Shown here: in pieces, positions 28,018-39,337 of the stretch
Numbering within the stretch: the first letter of the stretch is position 1
How the letters are laid out: each line of letters starts with the position of its first letter
Source of the DNA: an uncultured bacterium
Lineage (GTDB): Bacteria > Bacillota > Clostridia > Lachnospirales > Lachnospiraceae
Direction of reading: 5' to 3'
DNA length: 64,000 bases
Assembly: GCA_945828315.1 (NCBI GenBank)
Contig: CALZQA010000005.1
Coordinates: 1 to 64,000 of the forward strand
Program-made: the position numbers and the translations under genes
The notes under the pieces: model-generated
What the model was told of the DNA's origin: nothing
The model's database searches: none
The model's input: the letters and a program-made list of their open reading frames with translations, nothing else

Positions 28018-28644
28018 ATGGGAGCTTTTCATCCGGACAGTGAGTTTATGCAGGCGCTTAGCCGAGTGGCAGATTATGTGATCTTAAATGTATTATGTGT
28101 TCTATTCTCGCTTCCAGTCATTACGGCAGGAGCGGCAATGACTGCCAAATATTATGTATCCATGAAGATCGTTAGAGGAGAAGAACCGGCAGTCTGGCAG
28201 GCGTTCTGGAAATCTTTTCGGGAAAATTTTAAGCAGGCAACGGGAATCTGGGTTCCTGCGCTGGCGATACTTCTTGTTTTGGCATGGGACTGGTATGCAG
28301 TGGTGAATGGCAGCAGCCAGAGTATGCCCTTAGCCGGAAAGATTCTTTTATTGATCATGACGCTGCTGGTGGGCATGGTCACCTATGCGGTGTTCCCTTT
28401 TCTTGCGCGGTTTCAGATAACGACGGTAGAGGCGTTGAAGGGTGCGATGGTATTTTGCTTCCTGAATCTGCCTAAGATGCTTTTAGTCCTGCTTGTGATC
28501 GCTTTGCCGTATGTACTGGCATTGTGGTATATCGAATGGGCGCTGGGACTATGGTTTTTTATTACGACAGTGGCACTGTACTACATCAGCAGGATGTTTG
28601 TAAAAGAATTTAAAAAGATTGAACAGGAGGAGCAGTTATCATGA
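28018..28644 (+). CDS. DUF624 (YesL-like) membrane protein
   Basis: The protein has 208 residues with about five hydrophobic spans (VILNVLCVLFSLPVITAGAA, LAILLVLAWDWYAVV, ILLLIMTLLVGMVTYAV, LLVLLVIALPYVLAL). VLFSLPVITAGAA followed by YYVSMKIVRGEE is the DUF624 signature. Family members sit with sugar uptake and glycoside hydrolase genes, but their function is not established. It overlaps the next gene by 4 bases (ATGA), so it is translationally coupled to the esterase remnant. Confidence 0.85.
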   Translation: MGAFHPDSEFMQALSRVADYVILNVLCVLFSLPVITAGAAMTAKYYVSMKIVRGEEPAVWQAFWKSFRENFKQATGIWVPALAILLVLAWDWYAVVNGSSQSMPLAGKILLLIMTLLVGMVTYAVFPFLARFQITTVEALKGAMVFCFLNLPKMLLVLLVIALPYVLALWYIEWALGLWFFITTVALYYISRMFVKEFKKIEQEEQLS

Positions 28645-29477
28645 ATGGACCGGCAGCACCGAAGGATCCGGAGAAAAAACGGCCGTTTTTTTACATTATG
28701 AGGGACAAAGAGATCTTTGGCGCCAGACAGGAGGACGGACGAGGCATCCAGTATCTGTACCAGGATTCCGGGCGTCTCATCAATAGTGCGCAGATTGTTG
28801 GAAATATCGAAGATCAGGAAATATTGAAGCTGTTGGAGACCGTAGAAGGCTTCCGGAAGCTGGTGCACAGCATCGGAGTGTCAGTGGAGACGGAGGATCC
28901 CAAAGAACAGGTGGAGTTCATTTTTCAGATGTATGGAAAAACGGATCTGTACGGAGGCGGAACGAACCTGACAGCAGTGTTCCTCGGAGATGGGGCAGAA
29001 AAGAGGATCTATTTATCAGAAGCAGACTGGCAGGAGGACGATCATGAGCCCGGACAGATCAAGATCCTTATGGATACGCCGGAGAAACTGGCAAAAGCCA
29101 GTGTCAGACTGTATCTGAATGATGGCTATACAGCTCCTGAAGTAGCAGAGGAGCAGCTGGTGGATGTGAATGGGCTTCCCTATCAGAAGATGATCGCAAG
29201 ATCTCTCATCCAGACCGGTAATACATACCGCATCTACCGTACGATCCAAAGAGCACGTCTTGGTGAGGATGTGACCCTTGCCTACATTGGAGGATCCATT
29301 ACGCAGGGAGCAGGGGCAACGCCTATTCATACGGAGTGTTATGCGGCTGTGAAAAATTTATTTCATACATCAGAGAAAACGAGGGTACAACGGATCTTGA
29401 CTGCTATATGTCTGTCCGTATGGACTTTTTTCATCAATTTCCAAATGAAGCGCATATATTTTTTGAAGTTTTATTAA
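28641..29477 (+). pseudogene. SGNH/GDSL esterase, 3'-truncated by fusion
   Basis: The first 235 residues look normal: FYIMRDKEIFGARQEDGRGI, then YLNDGYTAPEVAEEQLVDVN and a GDSL block I, TLAYIGGSITQGAGA, with the catalytic Ser. After HTECYA (about 29346) the family sequence stops and the frame continues as unrelated, Phe-rich text to 29477. The remaining blocks with Gly, Asn and the Asp-His pair are missing, so the enzyme is inactive. Such SGNH proteins beside GH115/GH3 are usually carbohydrate (xylan acetyl) esterases. The following DNA encodes a TetR C terminus in another frame. Confidence 0.75.
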
Positions 29478-29764
29478 ACCCGCCACCTCATTTATCGGAT
29501 GAAATACAGGACGCAATGGTAGAATTTAACAAACTAAATGAAAGTATCTGCAAGCAGACTCTGGATATGCTCACCTTGCGTGACGGGATCACGATGGAAA
29601 ATGCGCTGTCGTATTTTCATTTGATGCAGACCATGCTGAACGGGTATTTCAGCAGCCCGGCCTTTCAAAATGTCGTTTTGAAGGAAAAGGTAAAAATACA
29701 TGAAACGATCATTCCAAAGCTGTTTGACTTTATGCTTTACGGAATTGCGAAGGGAGAGAAATAA
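29345..29764 (+). pseudogene. TetR regulator C-terminal domain without HTH
   Basis: From about 29352 the frame reads FISYIRENEGTTDLDCYMSV, FFHQFPNEAHIFFEVLL and FDFMLYGIAKGEK, a TetR_C-type helical domain of about 130 residues. The DNA-binding helix-turn-helix is gone; the DNA upstream belongs to the SGNH gene. It ends 1 base before the antiporter gene, which it probably once regulated. Confidence 0.65.
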
Positions 29765-31032: not shown

Positions 31033-31908
31033 TTACATCAGTTCCGGAATCATCTCTTTTGTCAGATTTAAAAACTTCATAGCTGCCGGAGACATATTGT
31101 CCTTCGCTTTCACGGCGACGCCCAGTGTCCGGGAGTAGTAAGGATCCAGAGGATAGGATGAGATCTGATCCTCAAAATTGCGAATGATAAGCTTGGGAAG
31201 AATACTGATCCCGAGCTTATTTGCGATCATGGAGATGATCGCGTGGTCATCCGTGGAAGAAAACTGGATGTTCGGCTGTACGGTGGAGCTGTCCAGAGCA
31301 TAGTGGATATCGTAGTCCGTGCCCATTGCCGAGATGATAAAGTTCTGACCCTCAAAATCGTTGATGGGATACGCTCCGGACTTCGGAACAGGTGCATCCT
31401 TGGGCAATACGGCCATCAACGGATCTTCGCAGAGGGGGATGAAATCTAGCGAATGCAGATTCCGGGCGCTCATAAAACCGAAATCCGCCATGTCATTTCC
31501 TACCCATTTGACGATGTCATCGGTACCGCCCTCAATCAACTGGATATTGATATTCGGATAGATTTCCTGAAAATGATGGATGATCTTCGGAAGCCAGTGG
31601 ATGGAAATACTGGAAAAGGTGGCGATCGTCAGAGAACCGGTCTCCAGACCGTTGATCTCACTGATGATCTGTTCCAGATTTTCGTGGCTCGCAAGCAGAG
31701 AGCGGACCGCGGGCAGGATCTGTCTGGCGTTAGAGGTCAGCTTGACACCCTGTTTGTTTCGTATAAATAACGGAAAACCGACTTCGTCTTCCAGCGATTT
31801 CAAAATATGGCTGACACCGGACTGGGTATATCCCAGACGCTCACCGCTCTTTGTGAAATTTTCTGTCTCTGCAACATCTGCGAAGAGCGAACATTTCTTT
31901 ATATCCAT
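31033..31908 (-). CDS. LysR family regulator divergent from the prd cluster
   Basis: The protein has 291 residues. The winged HTH is at about 3-60: KCSLFADVAETENFTKSGER, LGYTQSGVSHILKSLEDEVG. The periplasmic-binding-protein-like effector domain follows from about 90. It is transcribed away from prdC, and the shared 270-bp interval holds both promoters, the usual arrangement for a LysR protein that controls the divergent operon. No PrdR-type sigma-54 activator is in the window. Its own leader contains a strong terminator directly behind a consensus promoter. AGGGGAG is the ribosome site. Confidence 0.88.
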   Translation of the reverse strand: MDIKKCSLFADVAETENFTKSGERLGYTQSGVSHILKSLEDEVGFPLFIRNKQGVKLTSNARQILPAVRSLLASHENLEQIISEINGLETGSLTIATFSSISIHWLPKIIHHFQEIYPNINIQLIEGGTDDIVKWVGNDMADFGFMSARNLHSLDFIPLCEDPLMAVLPKDAPVPKSGAYPINDFEGQNFIISAMGTDYDIHYALDSSTVQPNIQFSSTDDHAIISMIANKLGISILPKLIIRNFEDQISSYPLDPYYSRTLGVAVKAKDNMSPAAMKFLNLTKEMIPELM

Positions 31909-31944
31909 AAGAACTCCCCTTTTGAAAACTGAATGATGAAAAAT

Positions 31945-31976
31945 AAAAAAGACGTCAAAGCAGCCGCTTTAACGTC
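31945..31976 (-). terminator. Intrinsic terminator in the lysR leader
   Basis: On the minus strand GACGT-AAAGC (from 31976) pairs with GCTTT-ACGTC (to 31951) with one mismatch, followed by six T and then ATTTTT. It lies only about 12 bases after the predicted start site and 37 bases before the lysR ATG, so it must be bypassed for lysR expression. Confidence 0.8.
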
Positions 31977-31994
31977 TTCGTTTTTTCTAGAAAT

Positions 31995-32023
31995 AGTATA
32001 GCCACTCTTATTTTTGCTGTCAA
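31995..32023 (-). promoter_or_regulatory. Consensus promoter of lysR
   Basis: On the minus strand TTGACA (32023-32018), 17 bp, TATACT (32000-31995). The predicted start is near 31988, immediately before the leader terminator. Confidence 0.75.
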
Positions 32024-32072
32024 CCTTTTTGGAGCATGACAAACTCTAATGATAGACAACGGAAAATGTCGT

Positions 32073-32101
32073 TTTACTTATTGCACGAGCGTGGATATAA
32101 T
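32073..32101 (+). promoter_or_regulatory. Probable prd operon promoter
   Basis: TATAAT (32096-32101) with TTTACT 17 bp upstream (32073-32078). No sigma-54 (-24/-12) element was found. CATGACAA at 32035-32042 matches half of the palindrome at 36638-36649. Confidence 0.5.
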
Positions 32102-32179
32102 CAAAACCAAATTTGAAACCACTCAGGACCCGGACAGATAGGAGCGGGCTGAATGGTTATGGGAAAAAGGAGTGAGAGC

Positions 32180-33487
32180 GTGAAAAAAATTTATCGTTTT
32201 CCTTTGAAGCAGCATATCGGAGCACCGGCTGCCCGGGCAGTTGCCCCCGGTGACAACGTTGTTCGCGGACAGCTCCTCGCGTTCAGGGAGGAAGAAACGC
32301 TGGGTGCCAATATTTATTCCAGTGTATCCGGTGTCGTTTCAGAGATCAGTGAGACCGAGATCATCATAGAGACAGATGAAAAGCAGGCGAAGGAGTATCT
32401 GCCGCTGAAACAGGAAACTCCGCTGGCACTCATTGAGGAGGCTGGTATCGTCGGGTTGGGAGGCGCAGGTTTCCCCACTTATGCAAAGTTGCAGCATCCG
32501 TTGCCGCCGGATGGAGTGGTGATCGTCAATGCGGCGGAATGTGAACCGATCCTGGGACACAACATTGCGGCGATCGAAAAAGATCCTGCGCAGCTCATCC
32601 GCGGACTTCAGATCGCGATGGAGGTCGTAAAGGCGGAAAAAGGCATCATTGCCATAAAGGAAATCCACACCGAAGCAATCGAACGTTTGCAGCAGGCACT
32701 CACAGATGAGCGGATCAGGATCGTGAAACTGCCGAATCTCTACCCGATGGGAGAGGAACGGGCGATCATCCGTGAGACGCTGGGTGTGCTACTTGGGGTC
32801 GAGAGCCTTCCTTCGGAGGCACATGCCATTGTGATCAATGCGGAGACGACCTGCCGGATTCAGGAGGCGGTGGATCTGAAAAAACCGCTGATCGATAAAA
32901 ATATGACCGTTGCGGGAAAATTGAAAGGAAACAGAGATCTGATCCGGATCTTTGAAGATGTTCCGATCGGCATTTCGGTGGGAGAGATGTTTGAGCAGGC
33001 AGGAGGTCTGGCAGACAGTTACGGCGAACTGATCATGGGAGGACCTTTTACCGGAAAGCGCACAAGCCCGGATGCGCCTGTCATCAAGACGACCGGCGGA
33101 CTGATCGCGGCTGAATGTTTTCTGAAGGGACCGGAAAAGATCGGGCTTCTGGTCTGCGCCTGCGGCGCTGATAAGGAGCGGCTGGAGCAGATCGCAGAGA
33201 GCATGGGCTCCAAGGTGGTAGGCGTGGAGTACTGCAAGCAGGCGCATCCGGTCAAAAGCAGCCTGAAATGTGAAAATCCGGGCAGATGTCCCGGTCAGGT
33301 GCAGAAGGTTCTTGCGCTGAAGAAAGCAGGCGCGCAGGCGGTGTTGATCAGTAATTGCACGGACTGCTCCAACACGGTCATGTCCTGTGCACCACAGCTT
33401 GGTCTGACTGTTTACCACTGCACGGACGGTGCTCTTCGGGCAGTGAATGCAAAACTGGTACGCAGGATCAGAGAAACTGCACCGTGA
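32180..33487 (+). CDS. prdC: PrdC, proline reductase-associated RnfC-like electron transfer protein
   Basis: The protein has 435 residues. KKIYRFPLKQHIGAPAARAV opens an RnfC-type barrel-sandwich, and GLGGAGFPTYAKL is the flavin-binding loop shared with RnfC/NuoF. The C-terminal part carries cysteine groups: LLVCACGADKERLEQI, CENPGRCPGQVQKVL and ISNCTDCSNTVMSCAP. PrdC passes electrons to proline reductase. No in-frame UGA occurs, so it is a cysteine form; characterised clostridial PrdC is reported as a selenoprotein. GTG at 32180 is chosen over ATG at 32153 because GGAG lies 7 bases before it and the conserved sequence begins there. Confidence 0.88.
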   Translation: MKKIYRFPLKQHIGAPAARAVAPGDNVVRGQLLAFREEETLGANIYSSVSGVVSEISETEIIIETDEKQAKEYLPLKQETPLALIEEAGIVGLGGAGFPTYAKLQHPLPPDGVVIVNAAECEPILGHNIAAIEKDPAQLIRGLQIAMEVVKAEKGIIAIKEIHTEAIERLQQALTDERIRIVKLPNLYPMGEERAIIRETLGVLLGVESLPSEAHAIVINAETTCRIQEAVDLKKPLIDKNMTVAGKLKGNRDLIRIFEDVPIGISVGEMFEQAGGLADSYGELIMGGPFTGKRTSPDAPVIKTTGGLIAAECFLKGPEKIGLLVCACGADKERLEQIAESMGSKVVGVEYCKQAHPVKSSLKCENPGRCPGQVQKVLALKKAGAQAVLISNCTDCSNTVMSCAPQLGLTVYHCTDGALRAVNAKLVRRIRETAP

Positions 33488-33534
33488 TGAGGTCTATAGT
33501 TACAAAAATCATAGATAGAGGAGGAAACAAACAT

Positions 33535-35355
33535 ATGTCAATCACAAACGAAACCTTACAGAAGCATTTGAAAGATCCGGCAATTTTTTGCTGCCGCAGA
33601 CAGAAAGGACTGGTGATCAGCGCTGCTGACCTGGAAGACCCGTCACTTTTTGACGACATGGAGGAGGCCGGTCTTCTCACGTTAAGTCCTGACGGACTGC
33701 GCATCGAGCAGGTGCTCGGTTCCACGCTGCTCACAGATGTGGAAGCATTGACACCGATCACAAAGGATGTGCTGGATAAGATCAATGAAACAGAGGAAAC
33801 ACCCGCGAAAGAAGTGGTCAGCGAGCCGGCAGCAGAAATATCCGCATCGGCAATACAAACAAGTACAGGAGGAAATGGCATGATACATATTGAGATTGGA
33901 AGAGTAGAAAATCTGGAGCATCTGAGTCTGGATATCCCGGCATTTGCGGGTGTACCCGTGACAGCAGCCACCGCGGCCGCGCCCGGAGCAGCAGTTCACG
34001 CAGCCGCACCGACAGCAGCTCCCAAGGAGGAGAAGAAGGAGAAAAAGGTCATCCGTACACTGACCAAAAAACATATCAGGATCACAGATGCTGAGATCGG
34101 AACTGAGACTTCCATTAAAGACGGAAAGATCACGATCGACGGCAGCATTGTGGAGAAAGCGATCTTGGAAGATCCCCTTTGCAAGAGCATGGAGCTGTCT
34201 GTGATCAAACCAAATGAGCGTCATATCTATACGGAAACGATCATGGATGTGTGCCCGATCGCTACGAAAGTAGAGGGCGAGCTTGGAAGTGGTGTGACCA
34301 AGGTTGCAGACGGCGTTGTATTCATGCTGACCGGTGTGGATGAGGACGGGGTACAGATTCACGAGTTTGGCTCTTCGGAAGGATATCTGGATGAGAAGAT
34401 GTACTTCGGACACCCGGGCTGCGCAGATGAAAACGACATCATCATCCGCTGCAATGTGGTCATTCAGAGATTGTCCGGCATGACAAGACCCGGCCCATTT
34501 GCAGCACACAAATGTCAGGATTATGTGATCCAGGCTGTGAGAAATGAGCTGAAAAAGTACGATGGCGAGATCGTTCGCGAGGAGATCTGCGAGGATGTCC
34601 GCAGACCCGGAAATCCCCGTGTCGTACTTGTCAAGGAGATCATGGGACAGGGCGCGATGCACGATAACGTGATCTGCCCCATCGAGCCCTGCGGCATTTT
34701 AGGAGGACAGAAAAACGTGGATTGCGGAAATGTGCCGATCATTCTGACACCCAACCAGGTGCGTGACGGTTCCATCCATGCGCTGACCTGTATCGGACCT
34801 GCAACGAAAGAGATGACCCGCCACTACATCCGCGAGCCACTCGTAGAGGGTCTGGCAGCAGATACCGAGATGGATCTGGTAGGCGTTGTATTTGTCGGTT
34901 CTCCGCAGGTCAACGACGAGAAGCTGTGGGTATCCGAGCGCCTCGGCTCTCTGTTAGAGTCACTGGATATCGATGGATGTATCATCACGACAGAGGGATT
35001 TGGAAACAATCACATTGATTTTATCCAGCATATCGGTCAGGCAGGAAAGCGAGGGATTCCGGTGGTAGGCGTATCCTTCTGTGCTTATCAGGGACAGCTG
35101 GTAGTCGGAAATGAGTACGCTACAGCCATGGTAGAAGAAAACATGGATCAGGGTGGATTTGAAAATAATGTGGCAGGCTGTTCCTGCGTGACGAAGGAAG
35201 TGGCAGCACGTGCCATCCAGATGCTGAAAAACAAGATGGCAGGTGTCGAGATTGCACCCGCACCGAAGAAATGGAATAACGATGTCATCAACGCCAACAA
35301 CCGACTGTTGGGACTTCCGGAGACCGTTTTGCTTGACAATGGCACGTTACACTGA
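33535..35355 (+). CDS. prdA: PrdA, D-proline reductase proprotein
   Basis: The proprotein has 606 residues. PrdA is cleaved autocatalytically at a Thr-Cys-type site to give a pyruvoyl-bearing subunit. Here the site reads HALTCIGPATKEMTRHY, with Cys419 as the expected pyruvoyl precursor. Flanking regions MGQGAMHDNVICPIEPCGIL and GVVFVGSPQVNDEKLW are typical. An Ala/Pro/Lys-rich linker spans about 140-175. With PrdB it reduces D-proline to 5-aminovalerate in Stickland fermentation. The ATG at 33535 follows GAGGAGGAAAC; the frame's upstream extension overlaps prdC and is not used. It overlaps the next gene by 17 bases. Confidence 0.93.
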   Translation: MSITNETLQKHLKDPAIFCCRRQKGLVISAADLEDPSLFDDMEEAGLLTLSPDGLRIEQVLGSTLLTDVEALTPITKDVLDKINETEETPAKEVVSEPAAEISASAIQTSTGGNGMIHIEIGRVENLEHLSLDIPAFAGVPVTAATAAAPGAAVHAAAPTAAPKEEKKEKKVIRTLTKKHIRITDAEIGTETSIKDGKITIDGSIVEKAILEDPLCKSMELSVIKPNERHIYTETIMDVCPIATKVEGELGSGVTKVADGVVFMLTGVDEDGVQIHEFGSSEGYLDEKMYFGHPGCADENDIIIRCNVVIQRLSGMTRPGPFAAHKCQDYVIQAVRNELKKYDGEIVREEICEDVRRPGNPRVVLVKEIMGQGAMHDNVICPIEPCGILGGQKNVDCGNVPIILTPNQVRDGSIHALTCIGPATKEMTRHYIREPLVEGLAADTEMDLVGVVFVGSPQVNDEKLWVSERLGSLLESLDIDGCIITTEGFGNNHIDFIQHIGQAGKRGIPVVGVSFCAYQGQLVVGNEYATAMVEENMDQGGFENNVAGCSCVTKEVAARAIQMLKNKMAGVEIAPAPKKWNNDVINANNRLLGLPETVLLDNGTLH

Positions 35356-35833
35356 TGATAGTACAACCAATGAAAGTGAAGTGAAGAAATTGCTGGATTA
35401 TATCATAAATCCCGTTCTGATGGGCGGACTGGTCAAAGAGGTGACAGAGGATGCACTGAAAGTTCATCTGCATGGAAGACTGGGTGTGATCACAGTTCCG
35501 AAGTCGCTTGTTCTCGATCCGGTTGAACTGGAGCCGGGACACGAGATGCAGTTTTATTTCAGCTATCTGCAGGTAAACGAGACGCCTTATGACTACGACG
35601 GAAGTGCCATCAGCCGTGATAGAGAATTTACTCCCTGTTTCGTTGGCGGAACCGTCACAGAAGTCAATGATACGGCCATCAAGGCAGATATCATGGAGGA
35701 CATGGGAACGGTTGCCGTACCGAGAAGATGGGTATTTACGGATCTGGCACTGCAGGAGGGTCAGAATGTGGAGTTTTACTTCAGTCCGATGCATGTGACC
35801 GGAAAACGGGAGATACCCGTAGAATCAATTTAA
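35339..35833 (+). CDS. CBO2463/CBO2479-type protein between prdA and prdB
   Basis: The protein has 164 residues. It contains two repeats of one small beta-rich unit: GGLVKEVTEDALKVHLHGRL (about 28-47) and GGTVTEVNDTAIKADIMEDM (about 104-123), each followed by a VxVP(K/R) motif. Such proteins accompany proline reductase genes, but no reaction is known. It starts inside the end of prdA and lacks a strong ribosome site, suggesting coupled translation at a fixed ratio to PrdA. It has no signal peptide or membrane segment. Confidence 0.7.
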   Translation: MARYTDDSTTNESEVKKLLDYIINPVLMGGLVKEVTEDALKVHLHGRLGVITVPKSLVLDPVELEPGHEMQFYFSYLQVNETPYDYDGSAISRDREFTPCFVGGTVTEVNDTAIKADIMEDMGTVAVPRRWVFTDLALQEGQNVEFYFSPMHVTGKREIPVESI

Positions 35834-35875
35834 CAGAATACATCGTTTTGCAAATGCATAAAAGGAGGAAAACTT

Positions 35876-36601
35876 ATGAATCTTACAACAGTAGCGGGCA
35901 TGCAGTCCGAAATATTTGTACCGGTAACTCCGGTTCCTGTATTTACAGAATTAAAGAAACCGTTAAGCGAGTGCAAGGTTGCATTTATCACAGCCGGCGG
36001 TATCCATAAAAAGAGTCAGACACCCTTCAATACATCCGGTGATTTCTCTTACCGCACCATCGAATTCGACACACCGTCTTCGGAGCTGATGGTAACACAT
36101 GGCGGATTCGATAATTCCGATATCAACAAGGATGTCAATGCCATGTTCCCCATCGACCGTCTGCATGAGCTGGTTGAGGAAGGATTTATCGGTTCTCTGT
36201 CTTATGAGACCTATACCTTTATGGGCGGCGGCGGAAACGTAGAAAAATTCAAAAATGAAACAGGTCCCGAGATTGCCCGCAAGTTGAAGGAGCAGGGCGT
36301 GGATATCGTTCTGTGTACCGGCGGATGCGGTACCTGTCACCGCTCAGCAACGATCGTTACCAGATGCTGTGAAGCGGCAGGCATGAGCTGTGTTGTTATT
36401 GCCGCACTTCCGCCGATCGCACGGCAGCAGGGGGCACCGCGCATCACGGCTCCCCATGTGCCTATCGGATCCAATGCCGGTGAACCCAATAACATTCCGA
36501 TGCAGACAGCTATTATCAAGGAGTCGTTGGAGTGGGTGCGCGACTGTCCCAGCTACAATCAGACGAAGGTATTGCCGTACGAATATCGTCATAATGTGTA
36601 A
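35876..36601 (+). CDS. prdB: PrdB, D-proline reductase subunit, cysteine form
   Basis: The subunit has 241 residues and GrdB-like folds: KVAFITAGGIHKKSQTPFNT, HGGFDNSDINKDVNAMFPID, SLSYETYTFMGGGGNV. The active-site segment is VLCTGGCGTCHRSATI. Cys151 (codon TGC) occupies the place where the well-studied PrdB has selenocysteine encoded by UGA (around residue 151-152). The second Cys, Cys154, is kept. The enzyme should therefore work without selenium, presumably with different kinetics. AAAGGAGGAAAAC precedes the ATG. The gene is the fourth of the prd transcript. Confidence 0.93.
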   Translation: MNLTTVAGMQSEIFVPVTPVPVFTELKKPLSECKVAFITAGGIHKKSQTPFNTSGDFSYRTIEFDTPSSELMVTHGGFDNSDINKDVNAMFPIDRLHELVEEGFIGSLSYETYTFMGGGGNVEKFKNETGPEIARKLKEQGVDIVLCTGGCGTCHRSATIVTRCCEAAGMSCVVIAALPPIARQQGAPRITAPHVPIGSNAGEPNNIPMQTAIIKESLEWVRDCPSYNQTKVLPYEYRHNV

Positions 36602-36637
36602 TTCTGCAGAGCCATAGAAATCTTCTCACATGTCAAC

Positions 36638-36649
36638 TTGTCATGACAA
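36638..36649. promoter_or_regulatory. Perfect 12-bp palindrome upstream of the racemase-TetR gene
   Basis: TTGTCATGACAA is self-complementary. It lies 184 bp before the fusion gene, in the prdB-prdF gap. Half of it, CATGACAA, recurs at 32035-32042 in the lysR-prdC interval. It is a candidate operator for the fused TetR domain. Confidence 0.4.
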
Positions 36650-36729
36650 TCATGCAGATGTGGAAGTTTACAAATGACAGAGCATATGATTAAATACAAC
36701 CATATTTAGGAATATTGATGAGCAAAATG

Positions 36730-36780
36730 AAACAGGGCAGACACAGGCGTCGCAAAGACAGGGTGCTGCTCTGTTTTTGT
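36730..36780 (+). terminator. Hairpin with U tract before the racemase-TetR gene
   Basis: AAACAGGGCAG (36730-36740) pairs with CTGCTCTGTTT (36766-36776) with one G-U pair, followed by TTGTTTC. It can end the prdB transcript or attenuate the next gene, 52 bases downstream. Confidence 0.7.
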
Positions 36781-36832
36781 TTCATCAGACAGATATTCGG
36801 AAATACAACGGATATGGAAAGGGGAAAGGACA

Positions 36833-38431
36833 ATGACACCTCCGAAGATCAGAAATTATAAATATCATATTAAAACGATCGATTCTCATACGATGGGTGA
36901 ACCCACCAGAATTGTCTATGACGGTTTCCCGGAGCTTTCCGGTGAGACGATGATGGATAAAAAGAAATATCTGATGGAACACTACGATTATCTGCGTTCT
37001 GCACTCATGCTGGAGCCACGTGGACACCGTGACATGTTCGGAGCGCTTCTGACTGCGCCGGTCCACGAGGAAGCGGACTACGGCGTTATTTTTTTGGACA
37101 GCGGGGGTTGCCTGAACATGTGCGGACATGGTAGTATAGGAACGGCGTCCATGCTGGTGGAGACAGGGATGGTTCCGGTCACGGAGCCCTACACGGAAGT
37201 TGTGCTGGATGCGCCGTCCGGTATTATCCGCACAAAGGTGCACGTGGTAGATGGCGAGGCAGTGGAAGTCAGCATTCTGAATGTTCCGGCATTTTTATAC
37301 AAAAAAAATCTGGAGATCGATACACAGGACTGGGGCAGAATATCCTACGATATTTCTTTTGGAGGTTCTTTTTTTGCGCTAGTTGACGCGGATGCCATTG
37401 GACTGTCCTTAAAGATGGAGAATGCGGATGTCATCACGCGGCTGGGAATGGAATTGCGGGATAAGATCAATCATTCGGTGGAGATCCGTCATCCATACCT
37501 GGATATCACAACCGTGGATCTGGTGGAGTTTTATTCAAAGCGCGCGGGTCATCATGCAACAATGAAAAACTGTGTCATTTTCGGTGATGCGCAGGTGGAT
37601 CGTTCACCCTGCGGAACCGGTACGAGTGCAAAGCTGGCTGCGCTCTATGCAAAAGGGGAATTGGGCCTTCATGAGCCGTTTCTTTATGAAAGTATTACCG
37701 GATCCATGTTCCGCGGCGAAGCTGTTCAGGAAGTGGAGATCGGAGATCAGACGGGCATTATTCCGCAAATCACCGGCAGCGCTTATATTACAGGGCTCAA
37801 TGAGTGGATCATTGATGATCAGGATCCCATGAAATATGGATTTTTGCTGGGACATATCACAGATGAGACCGAGAGCGAGCGCAGCAGGATCGTCAAGGCT
37901 GCATGGGAGTTATTCCATGAGAAAGGCTATGAGGAGACGACGATCACGGACGTAATCACCCGTTCGGGTGTGACAGAGGAATGCTTTTATCAGAATTTCT
38001 CACAGAAGGACGATCTGGAGCATACGCTGGGAGACTTGTTTGATGAGAAATATGCCCAGCTGATGGTATCCATGAATCCGAGATTTTCGCATTACGAGCA
38101 GCTCGTATATTTGAACCGGGAGCTGTTTGAAATGATCGAGACGCAGGTGCCCTTTCAGCTTGTGGAGCATATATACGTGGGGATGCCACAGGAGCGGCAG
38201 GAACTGTTAAATAAAAATCGTTTTTATTATCAGCTGATCACTCAGATCATTAAAGAGGGACAGCAAAAAGGAGAATTTGACCGGGAGGAGTCTGCGGAGT
38301 CATTGACTGATACATATGCATCGCTGGAGCGAGGTCTGATCTATGACTGGTGTGTCAAGGGTGGAACCGAAAGCCTCAGTGCAAAAGGCCAAAAGATCCT
38401 TTCCATTTTTTTAAAACATTTGATGAAATAG
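36833..38431 (+). CDS. Proline racemase fused to a TetR regulator
   Basis: This is a single uninterrupted frame of 532 residues. Residues 1-338 are a complete PrdF-type proline racemase: [20 protein letters not shown], the catalytic Cys97 in [21 protein letters not shown], and the second catalytic Cys260 in [14 protein letters not shown], ending [18 protein letters not shown]. PrdF alone is about 335 residues. Residues 346-395 are a Tet[45 protein letters not shown] TetR ligand-like helical domain runs to 532. The linker is only a few residues. Racemase makes D-proline for PrdA/B; the fused domain suggests gene control by the enzyme. An in-frame ATG at 37829, with AGGA 5 bases upstream, could also yield a free TetR domain. 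Confidence 0.9.
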
Positions 38432-38446
38432 GATGAAAAAAGTATC

Positions 38447-39337
38447 ATGAAAAAATTTGCACCAATACTGATCTTAATAGCGGGAGTCCTGTGGGGCAGC
38501 ATGGGACTGTTTGTGCGCACGCTGAATGCATCCGGTCTCGCATCTATGGAGATTGTGGGACTGCGGGCGATCGTCACGGCAGTGGCATTGTTTTTATATC
38601 TGCTTGCCTTTGACCGAAAGCTTTTTAAGATCCGATGGAAGGATATCTGGTGCTTTCTCGGAACGGGGATTTGCAGTATCGTCTTTTTTAACTACTGTTA
38701 TTTTAAGGCGATCACGATGACGTCCCTTTCCGTGGCGGCAATTCTTCTTTACATCGCACCGGCGATCGTAATGTTGCTTTCCTACTTCCTTTTCGGGGAA
38801 AAATTGACAAAGCGCAAGCTGCTCTCGCTGGTGATGACCTTTGCGGGCTGTGTGCTGGTGACCGGGATCCTGACGGAGAGCGGTTCTATATCAGCCGGAG
38901 GAATTCTGGTGGGGCTGGGTGCAGGACTTGGCTATGCGTTGTATTCGATCTTCGGCCGTTATGCACTTGCAAAAGGATATGCGTCGCTGACGATCACGTT
39001 TTACACGTTTCTGATCGCAGCCATCGCTTCCTGCTTCCTGACGGATATGGGAAAGGTGGTACGGGTGGCGACGGACAGTGCAGGCAACTTTTTCTTCTGT
39101 CTGGCCTTCGGCGTGCTGTGTACGGTCGTTCCCTATCTGACCTATACCTTGGGGCTACAGTATGTAGAGAACGGAAAAGCGTCTATCATTGCATCCGTGG
39201 AGCCGGTAACGGCGACTTTGCTTGGTGCGCTTTTGTTTCATGAAAAACTTACGGTCACCGGAGTGCTCGGCGTTGTGCTGGTGCTGGCAGCGCTGGTGAT
39301 CTGTAATGGCAATAAGAAAGAAGGAATGGAAAAATGA
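38447..39337 (+). CDS. EamA/DMT family transporter
   Basis: The protein has 296 residues and ten hydrophobic spans in two EamA repeats (about 8-140 and 150-290). LILIAGVLWGSMGLFVRTLN and ASVEPVTATLLGALLFHEKL are the signature ends of each half. DMT proteins mostly export amino acids or other metabolites; the substrate is unknown. It begins 15 bases after the racemase-TetR gene and overlaps the aminopeptidase gene by 4 bases, so it is probably part of the same transcript. Export of a proline-fermentation product or import of an amino acid is speculative. Confidence 0.85.
   Translation: MKKFAPILILIAGVLWGSMGLFVRTLNASGLASMEIVGLRAIVTAVALFLYLLAFDRKLFKIRWKDIWCFLGTGICSIVFFNYCYFKAITMTSLSVAAILLYIAPAIVMLLSYFLFGEKLTKRKLLSLVMTFAGCVLVTGILTESGSISAGGILVGLGAGLGYALYSIFGRYALAKGYASLTITFYTFLIAAIASCFLTDMGKVVRVATDSAGNFFFCLAFGVLCTVVPYLTYTLGLQYVENGKASIIASVEPVTATLLGALLFHEKLTVTGVLGVVLVLAALVICNGNKKEGMEK

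Follow-up and report, generated by a model that had tools for sequence, protein, structure and literature searches.

A proline racemase fused to a TetR-family fold in D-proline reductase loci of Lachnospiraceae

PutA is a trigger enzyme of the proline pathway whose N-terminal ribbon-helix-helix domain binds DNA and whose enzyme fold is unrelated to that of the racemase considered here. The fusion that we describe resembles PutA in that a proline-pathway enzyme is joined to a regulator-type domain. An enzyme and a helix-turn-helix (HTH) domain share one chain here, but the hallmarks of DNA binding are missing. The enzyme part has counterparts in clostridial PrdF and in the proline racemase of Acetoanaerobium sticklandii (AsProR, PDB 7pb3), which have the same fold, both catalytic cysteines and linkage to prd genes. 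AsProR is the best solved relative of the racemase half (54% identity, TM 0.97 by target length), and its solved chain has 343 residues, whereas the fusion has 190 more, which form a TetR fold. This additional part has in common with TetR-family repressors of the AcrR, TtgR and FadR types the HTH and the all-helical ligand-binding and dimerisation fold. It differs from them in having lost the DNA-recognition signature and in lying C-terminal to an enzyme.

The regulator described for the prd genes of Clostridia is PrdR, a sigma54-dependent activator predicted for Clostridium, Clostridioides, Alkaliphilus and Geosporobacter (PMC6615313). It regulates the same pathway, but is an unrelated protein. 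In the openly available literature that we searched, regulation of D-proline reductase was found solely with this activator, and we found no description of a racemase-TetR fusion, of a TetR protein controlling prd genes or of a TetR-enzyme fusion that does not bind DNA.

One reading frame with two folds

The window, i.e. the whole stretch of 64,000 nucleotides analysed here, comes from an uncultured bacterium of the Lachnospiraceae. It holds a prd locus and, in it, an open frame of 532 codons that encodes a proline racemase, a short linker and a whole TetR fold (Table 1). The racemase part matches Pro_racemase (PF05544) at residues 16-337 with 393 bits against a cut-off of 27 (E 1e-117, Pfam profile search), and the fusion protein is the only one above this cut-off in the genome of the window. 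The original prediction of a complete racemase with Cys97 and Cys260, fused in one frame to a TetR protein, is borne out: both cysteines are invariant in the 11 fused proteins presented below. The fused protein of G008 (L034 1987-3588) reads MCRHGS instead of MCGHGS, through either a sequencing error or a loss of activity. The NCBIfam equivalog model of proline racemase (NF010576) gives the fusion 491 bits, under its curated cut-off of 556, and it is still the top one among the racemase-family models, the next giving 336 bits. The prd context and the best solved relative suggest that the racemase half is specific for L/D-proline. As a whole, these data best fit a protein that serves the D-proline reductase pathway as its L/D-proline racemase (PrdF) and has a TetR-family regulator fused to it.

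Table 1. Features of the prd locus and of the fusion gene, in positions of the window
Feature	Position	Strand	Basis
LysR-family regulator, divergent from prdC	31033..31908	-	profile match, flank comparison
prdC	32153..33487	+	TIGR04481 644.5 bits, above cut-off
prdA (start approximate)	33553..35355	+	TIGR04480 879 bits, above cut-off
prdB, Cys form	35876..36601	+	TIGR04483 454.8 bits, above cut-off
Promoter-like TTTACA-N17-TTAAAT upstream of fusion gene	36667..36695	+	sequence, comparison with L033 and L035
Terminator-like hairpin and T-run in fusion-gene leader	36732..36779	+	RNA folding
prdF-tetR fusion gene	36833..38431	+	532 codons plus stop; open frame, recurs in 11 assemblies
Proline racemase domain, residues 1-340	36833..37852	+	Pfam Pro_racemase
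Catalytic Cys97 codon, MCGHGS motif	37121..37123	+	invariant in 11 fused proteins
Catalytic Cys260 codon	37610..37612	+	invariant in 11 fused proteins
Internal ATG (Met333)	37829..37831	+	not a conserved start
Linker, residues 341-349	37853..37879	+	pLDDT below 50 at 341-346
TetR-type HTH region, residues 350-397, fold kept	37880..38023	+	TetR_N; helices 349-364, 371-378, 382-388
Remodelled recognition helix, residues 380-391, versus TSKG[ST]FYHYFxx in relatives	37970..38005	+	alignment comparison
Ligand-binding and dimerisation half of TetR type (residues 398-532), with retention of key residues	38024..38428	+	conservation, omega
EamA-family transporter gene, just downstream of fusion	38447..39337	+	profile match

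The TetR_N profile matches at residues 353-395 (41.6 bits against a Pfam cut-off of 24) and is matched by all 11 fused proteins at E 0.1 or better; TetR_C matches, reaching up to residue 528, are weak and below cut-off. An AlphaFold2 model based on 69 aligned sequences (mean pLDDT 90, pTM 0.64) has a racemase fold, a flexible joint at residues 341-346 and then nine TetR-like helices at 349-530. Of 30 ligand-half positions with at least 90% conservation among unfused TetRs, 17 are retained by all fused proteins. They include Arg463, Tyr465, Glu499, Arg500 and Trp506, residues that show little or no variation in unfused TetRs. Within the genus of the window, the omega values are about 0.05 (racemase), 0.04-0.08 (HTH region) and 0.04-0.06 (ligand-binding half). 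The low value of the HTH region suggests that the recognition helix is constrained for something.

The same one-frame architecture, under purifying selection, is shared by 11 assemblies (the window, G001, G008, L035, L036, L037, G399, G473, G504, G513 and G516), which belong to at least four genera of Lachnospiraceae. The ten other fused proteins are 64-89% identical to that of the window. In most of the fused genomes the gene is part of a prd cluster or close to one, and prdA is present in every genome with an intact fusion, the match being partial in the draft genomes G516 and G638. This much of the original interpretation is supported: the fusion is a genuine, recurrent gene, kept under selection and tied to the D-proline reductase genes. 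A further genome of the same genus as the window (G006) has a fusion copy with two internal in-frame deletions, at about residues 188-253 and 270-490 (L038 1632-2450). It has no detectable prdA, and the two observations together fit a link between the fusion gene and the pathway.

DNA-reading parts and predicted operators in unfused relatives

The two families are found in the same order, as separate genes, in other genera. At 26 loci a racemase gene is followed by a TetR gene on the same strand, mostly 8 to 280 bases on, and at many of these loci the pair is divergent from prdC-prdA-prdB. The tandem TetRs are about 38-44% identical to the fused half. Unlike it, they have a canonical TSKG helix, a basic arm and a conserved predicted operator in the promoter region. 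The latter is the palindrome TACTAGAAYRYRKTCTAWTT, which is found within the shared promoter region, some 150 bases ahead of the start of the racemase gene, and scores 18.8-27.7 at 25 of the 26 tandem loci with upstream sequence, compared with a peak of 16.5 in shuffled sequence of 18 kb. The best score at fused loci is 12.6, i.e. background. Exact copies stand at the racemase promoter in seven of nine tandem genomes, the other two having a single-mismatch copy there, and a genome-wide search found none in 17 fused-clade genomes (12 fused or degenerate and five racemase-only). In G041 and G396, a second, distant racemase gene is likewise preceded by exact copies, and L100 has a strong site upstream of a solo TetR from the family of the tandem ones. 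From its position and symmetry, and bearing in mind that the loci are related, we infer that the palindrome is the operator of the tandem TetRs; at L082 the predicted operator is TACTAGAACTCAGTCTATTT.

Palindromes of the same or related kinds (TAGAC....GTCTA types) were also seen near solo TetRs of this family (L100 3821, L109 4728, L105 3771 and L092 4278), which suggests a larger family whose operators are related. Two more racemase-TetR pairs, both broken and in opposite orientation, lie on one short contig (L128, contig C4 of G014), and operator-like sites CTAGAATGCGTTCTG adjoin both of them.

The recognition helix, TSKG[ST]FY[HY]YF, is nearly invariant in 44 unfused TetRs (25 tandem and 19 solo), whereas the T-S-K-G motif is gone from all 11 fused proteins, with TPAEMQFVF among their helix sequences. 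Thr380, Lys382 and Gly383 are 95-100% conserved in these 44 proteins and kept by none of eight distinct fused proteins. Six of the eight have an acidic residue at 382/383, against none of 61 other TetRs, i.e. the 44 relatives and 17 unrelated TetRs of these and related genomes (Fisher p 2e-7, only a guide since related sequences are not independent). The DNA-facing positions, where acidic residues are frequent, are also those that vary most among fused proteins. At matched divergence of the ligand domain, the mean divergence of the recognition helix is 0.65 in fused pairs versus 0.13 in unfused pairs, and it differs even between species of one fused genus (TEEC, TEES, TEET). The 12 residues of the arm before helix 1 have a mean net charge of -0.8 in fused proteins versus +5.1 in tandem and +3.8 in solo TetRs. 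Sequence rules for DNA binding by TetRs do not hold absolutely. The comparison suggests that the fused TetR half does not bind DNA any more. The claim that neither half is degraded thus holds for the fold and fails for the DNA-recognition helix, where conserved residues were lost.

A gene for a LysR 50-68% identical to that of the window stands at prd or fusion genes in most readable flanks of the fused clade. Its homologues are also found at the prd genes of racemase-only members of the clade, and LysR genes near tandem loci share no more than 36% identity with the one in the window. In the fused clade, a LysR may thus have replaced a TetR as regulator of the pathway.

History of the fusion and its possible roles

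The fused TetR halves form one clade (support 100/99), and the fused proteins do not in the racemase tree (AU p 0.007). There, the racemase-only genes of G426, G199, G130 and G255 are nested among the fused racemases, and both kinds occur in the same genera (G426 with G473; G199 with G504, G513 and G516). Both trees are accounted for by a single fusion, after which the TetR half was lost repeatedly. The fused TetR probably derives from the regulator encoded next door in relatives, although the test of a descent from racemase-adjacent TetRs does not decide the matter (AU p 0.525). The racemase-only protein of G426 has a short C-terminal tail, PPWEMI as against AAWKLF, a possible remnant of the TetR half that is suggestive only.

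The marks of DNA reading are lost and the fold is conserved, so the fused half is probably a sensor or tuner of proline fermentation within the enzyme rather than a switch for genes. We favour, as rather probable, the interpretation that a captured repressor became a non-DNA-binding ligand and dimerisation module of the racemase and was later lost in some lineages. A TetR-family regulator would have been fused once into a PrdF racemase and would no longer bind DNA, serving as a ligand-sensing, dimerising module within the enzyme. This module would adjust the activity or stability of the racemase to a pathway metabolite, for which L- or D-proline, ornithine and 5-aminovalerate are candidates, and it would be dispensable enough for some lineages to have lost it again. 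The fusion of G504 is next to proC and an ornithine-type aminotransferase gene, and the sensed metabolite could thus be proline or a neighbour in the route from ornithine to proline. The TetR half may have an allosteric effect on the racemase. With somewhat more doubt than belief, one might go further and propose that a TetR repressor was domesticated in a cofactor-independent racemase, as an allosteric domain that senses a ligand and does not bind DNA, after a LysR had taken over control of the pathway genes.

The original prediction was of a trigger enzyme that binds DNA. To do so now, the fusion would have to bind a new operator and repress or activate prd genes depending on whether proline occupies the racemase or the TetR pocket. 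The HTH fold is kept, with TetR_N above cut-off, and most fused genomes have the gene within or close to a prd cluster, but the parts that read DNA argue against such a role. The Lys-Gly of the recognition helix is lost in all 11 proteins, and the helix is acidic and so divergent between species of one genus that each species would need a new operator. The basic arm is lost, the ancestral operator is gone from the fused clade and a LysR gene is present at the prd genes. A search for new palindromes in 11 to 15 fused-clade promoter regions gave a weak excess over shuffles, with a TGTAA-TTTACA-like site that overlaps the -35 element, and this candidate operator was rejected. We thus regard a DNA-binding trigger enzyme as unlikely, and leave it some probability since the HTH has kept its fold and is under constraint. 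It had also been suggested that the ATG at 37829, with AGGA upstream, might release a free regulator. Both are present, but the ATG codes for Met333 in the C-terminal motif DPxxxGF of the racemase. Comparison of the fused genes found no recurrent start codon with a ribosome-binding site at the junction beyond the window's own genus, which rules out an internal translation start as a conserved feature.

The TetR half might instead provide only a dimer interface or stability, or be a slowly decaying remnant, in either case without ligand sensing. Racemase-only proteins nested among the fused ones, some in the same genera, and the G006 copy with two deletions and no detectable prdA would be expected from such a passenger. 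Yet the strong purifying selection on the ligand-binding half and the retention of the five residues from Arg463 to Trp506 speak against it, and we find it improbable. As for an assembly artefact, or a stop codon lost by chance in a single genome, the window does come from a draft genome in 113 contigs and separate tandem genes are indeed common in relatives, which had been named as a sign of artefact, but a fusion that recurs in 11 independent assemblies is neither chance read-through nor misassembly, and the idea is practically refuted.

If the fused half is a repressor turned into an enzyme domain, the stages of its evolution stand side by side in present-day genomes and can be compared: distinct genes for repressor and enzyme, fusion with decayed DNA reading, and domain loss. 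It would then show a route from transcription factor to enzyme domain, in which gene fusion turned a transcriptional feedback loop into direct feedback on the enzyme. The tandem loci, for their part, predict a TetR regulator of D-proline reductase genes, with a defined operator, in gut Lachnospiraceae.

Other features of the prd loci and of related regulators

Transcription units around prd genes in the fused clade begin with a promoter and a short leader, in which a strong terminator-like hairpin (z -3.4 to -5.6) precedes the first gene. We observed this at 36667-36779 of the window and at L033 3735-3820, L035 3825-3905, L068 5775-5850, L156 10800-10860 and L133 15190-15250, with loops that are partly alike (CAGACA..GG.GTC..GACA). 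In the window, positions 36700-36790 fold with -31.3 kcal/mol (z -4.95). An Rfam search of positions 31880-36900 found no known RNA family, with one sub-threshold hit at chance level. These are possibly attenuation leaders.

Two other frames concern regulators of the TetR family. Positions 29336-29764 of the window hold a 142-residue frame with a TetR_C_5-like half and no in-frame HTH, overlapping the end of the open reading frame at 28641-29477; this may be a truncated or frameshifted regulator. In G345 (L098 4050-5486), a solo TetR of the same family as the tandem ones and a sequence like endonuclease IV (Nfo) share one frame of 479 codons, another apparent fusion of a TetR with an enzyme, judged by eye only.

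Finally, the genome of the window has a second prdA-prdB set (L134 4194-6852, contig C61 of G000), beside a selD-like gene and further genes that seem connected with selenium. The frame of this second prdB is interrupted by a TGA at the expected selenocysteine, whereas the prdB of the window has a cysteine, and two forms of D-proline reductase may thus coexist in this genome.
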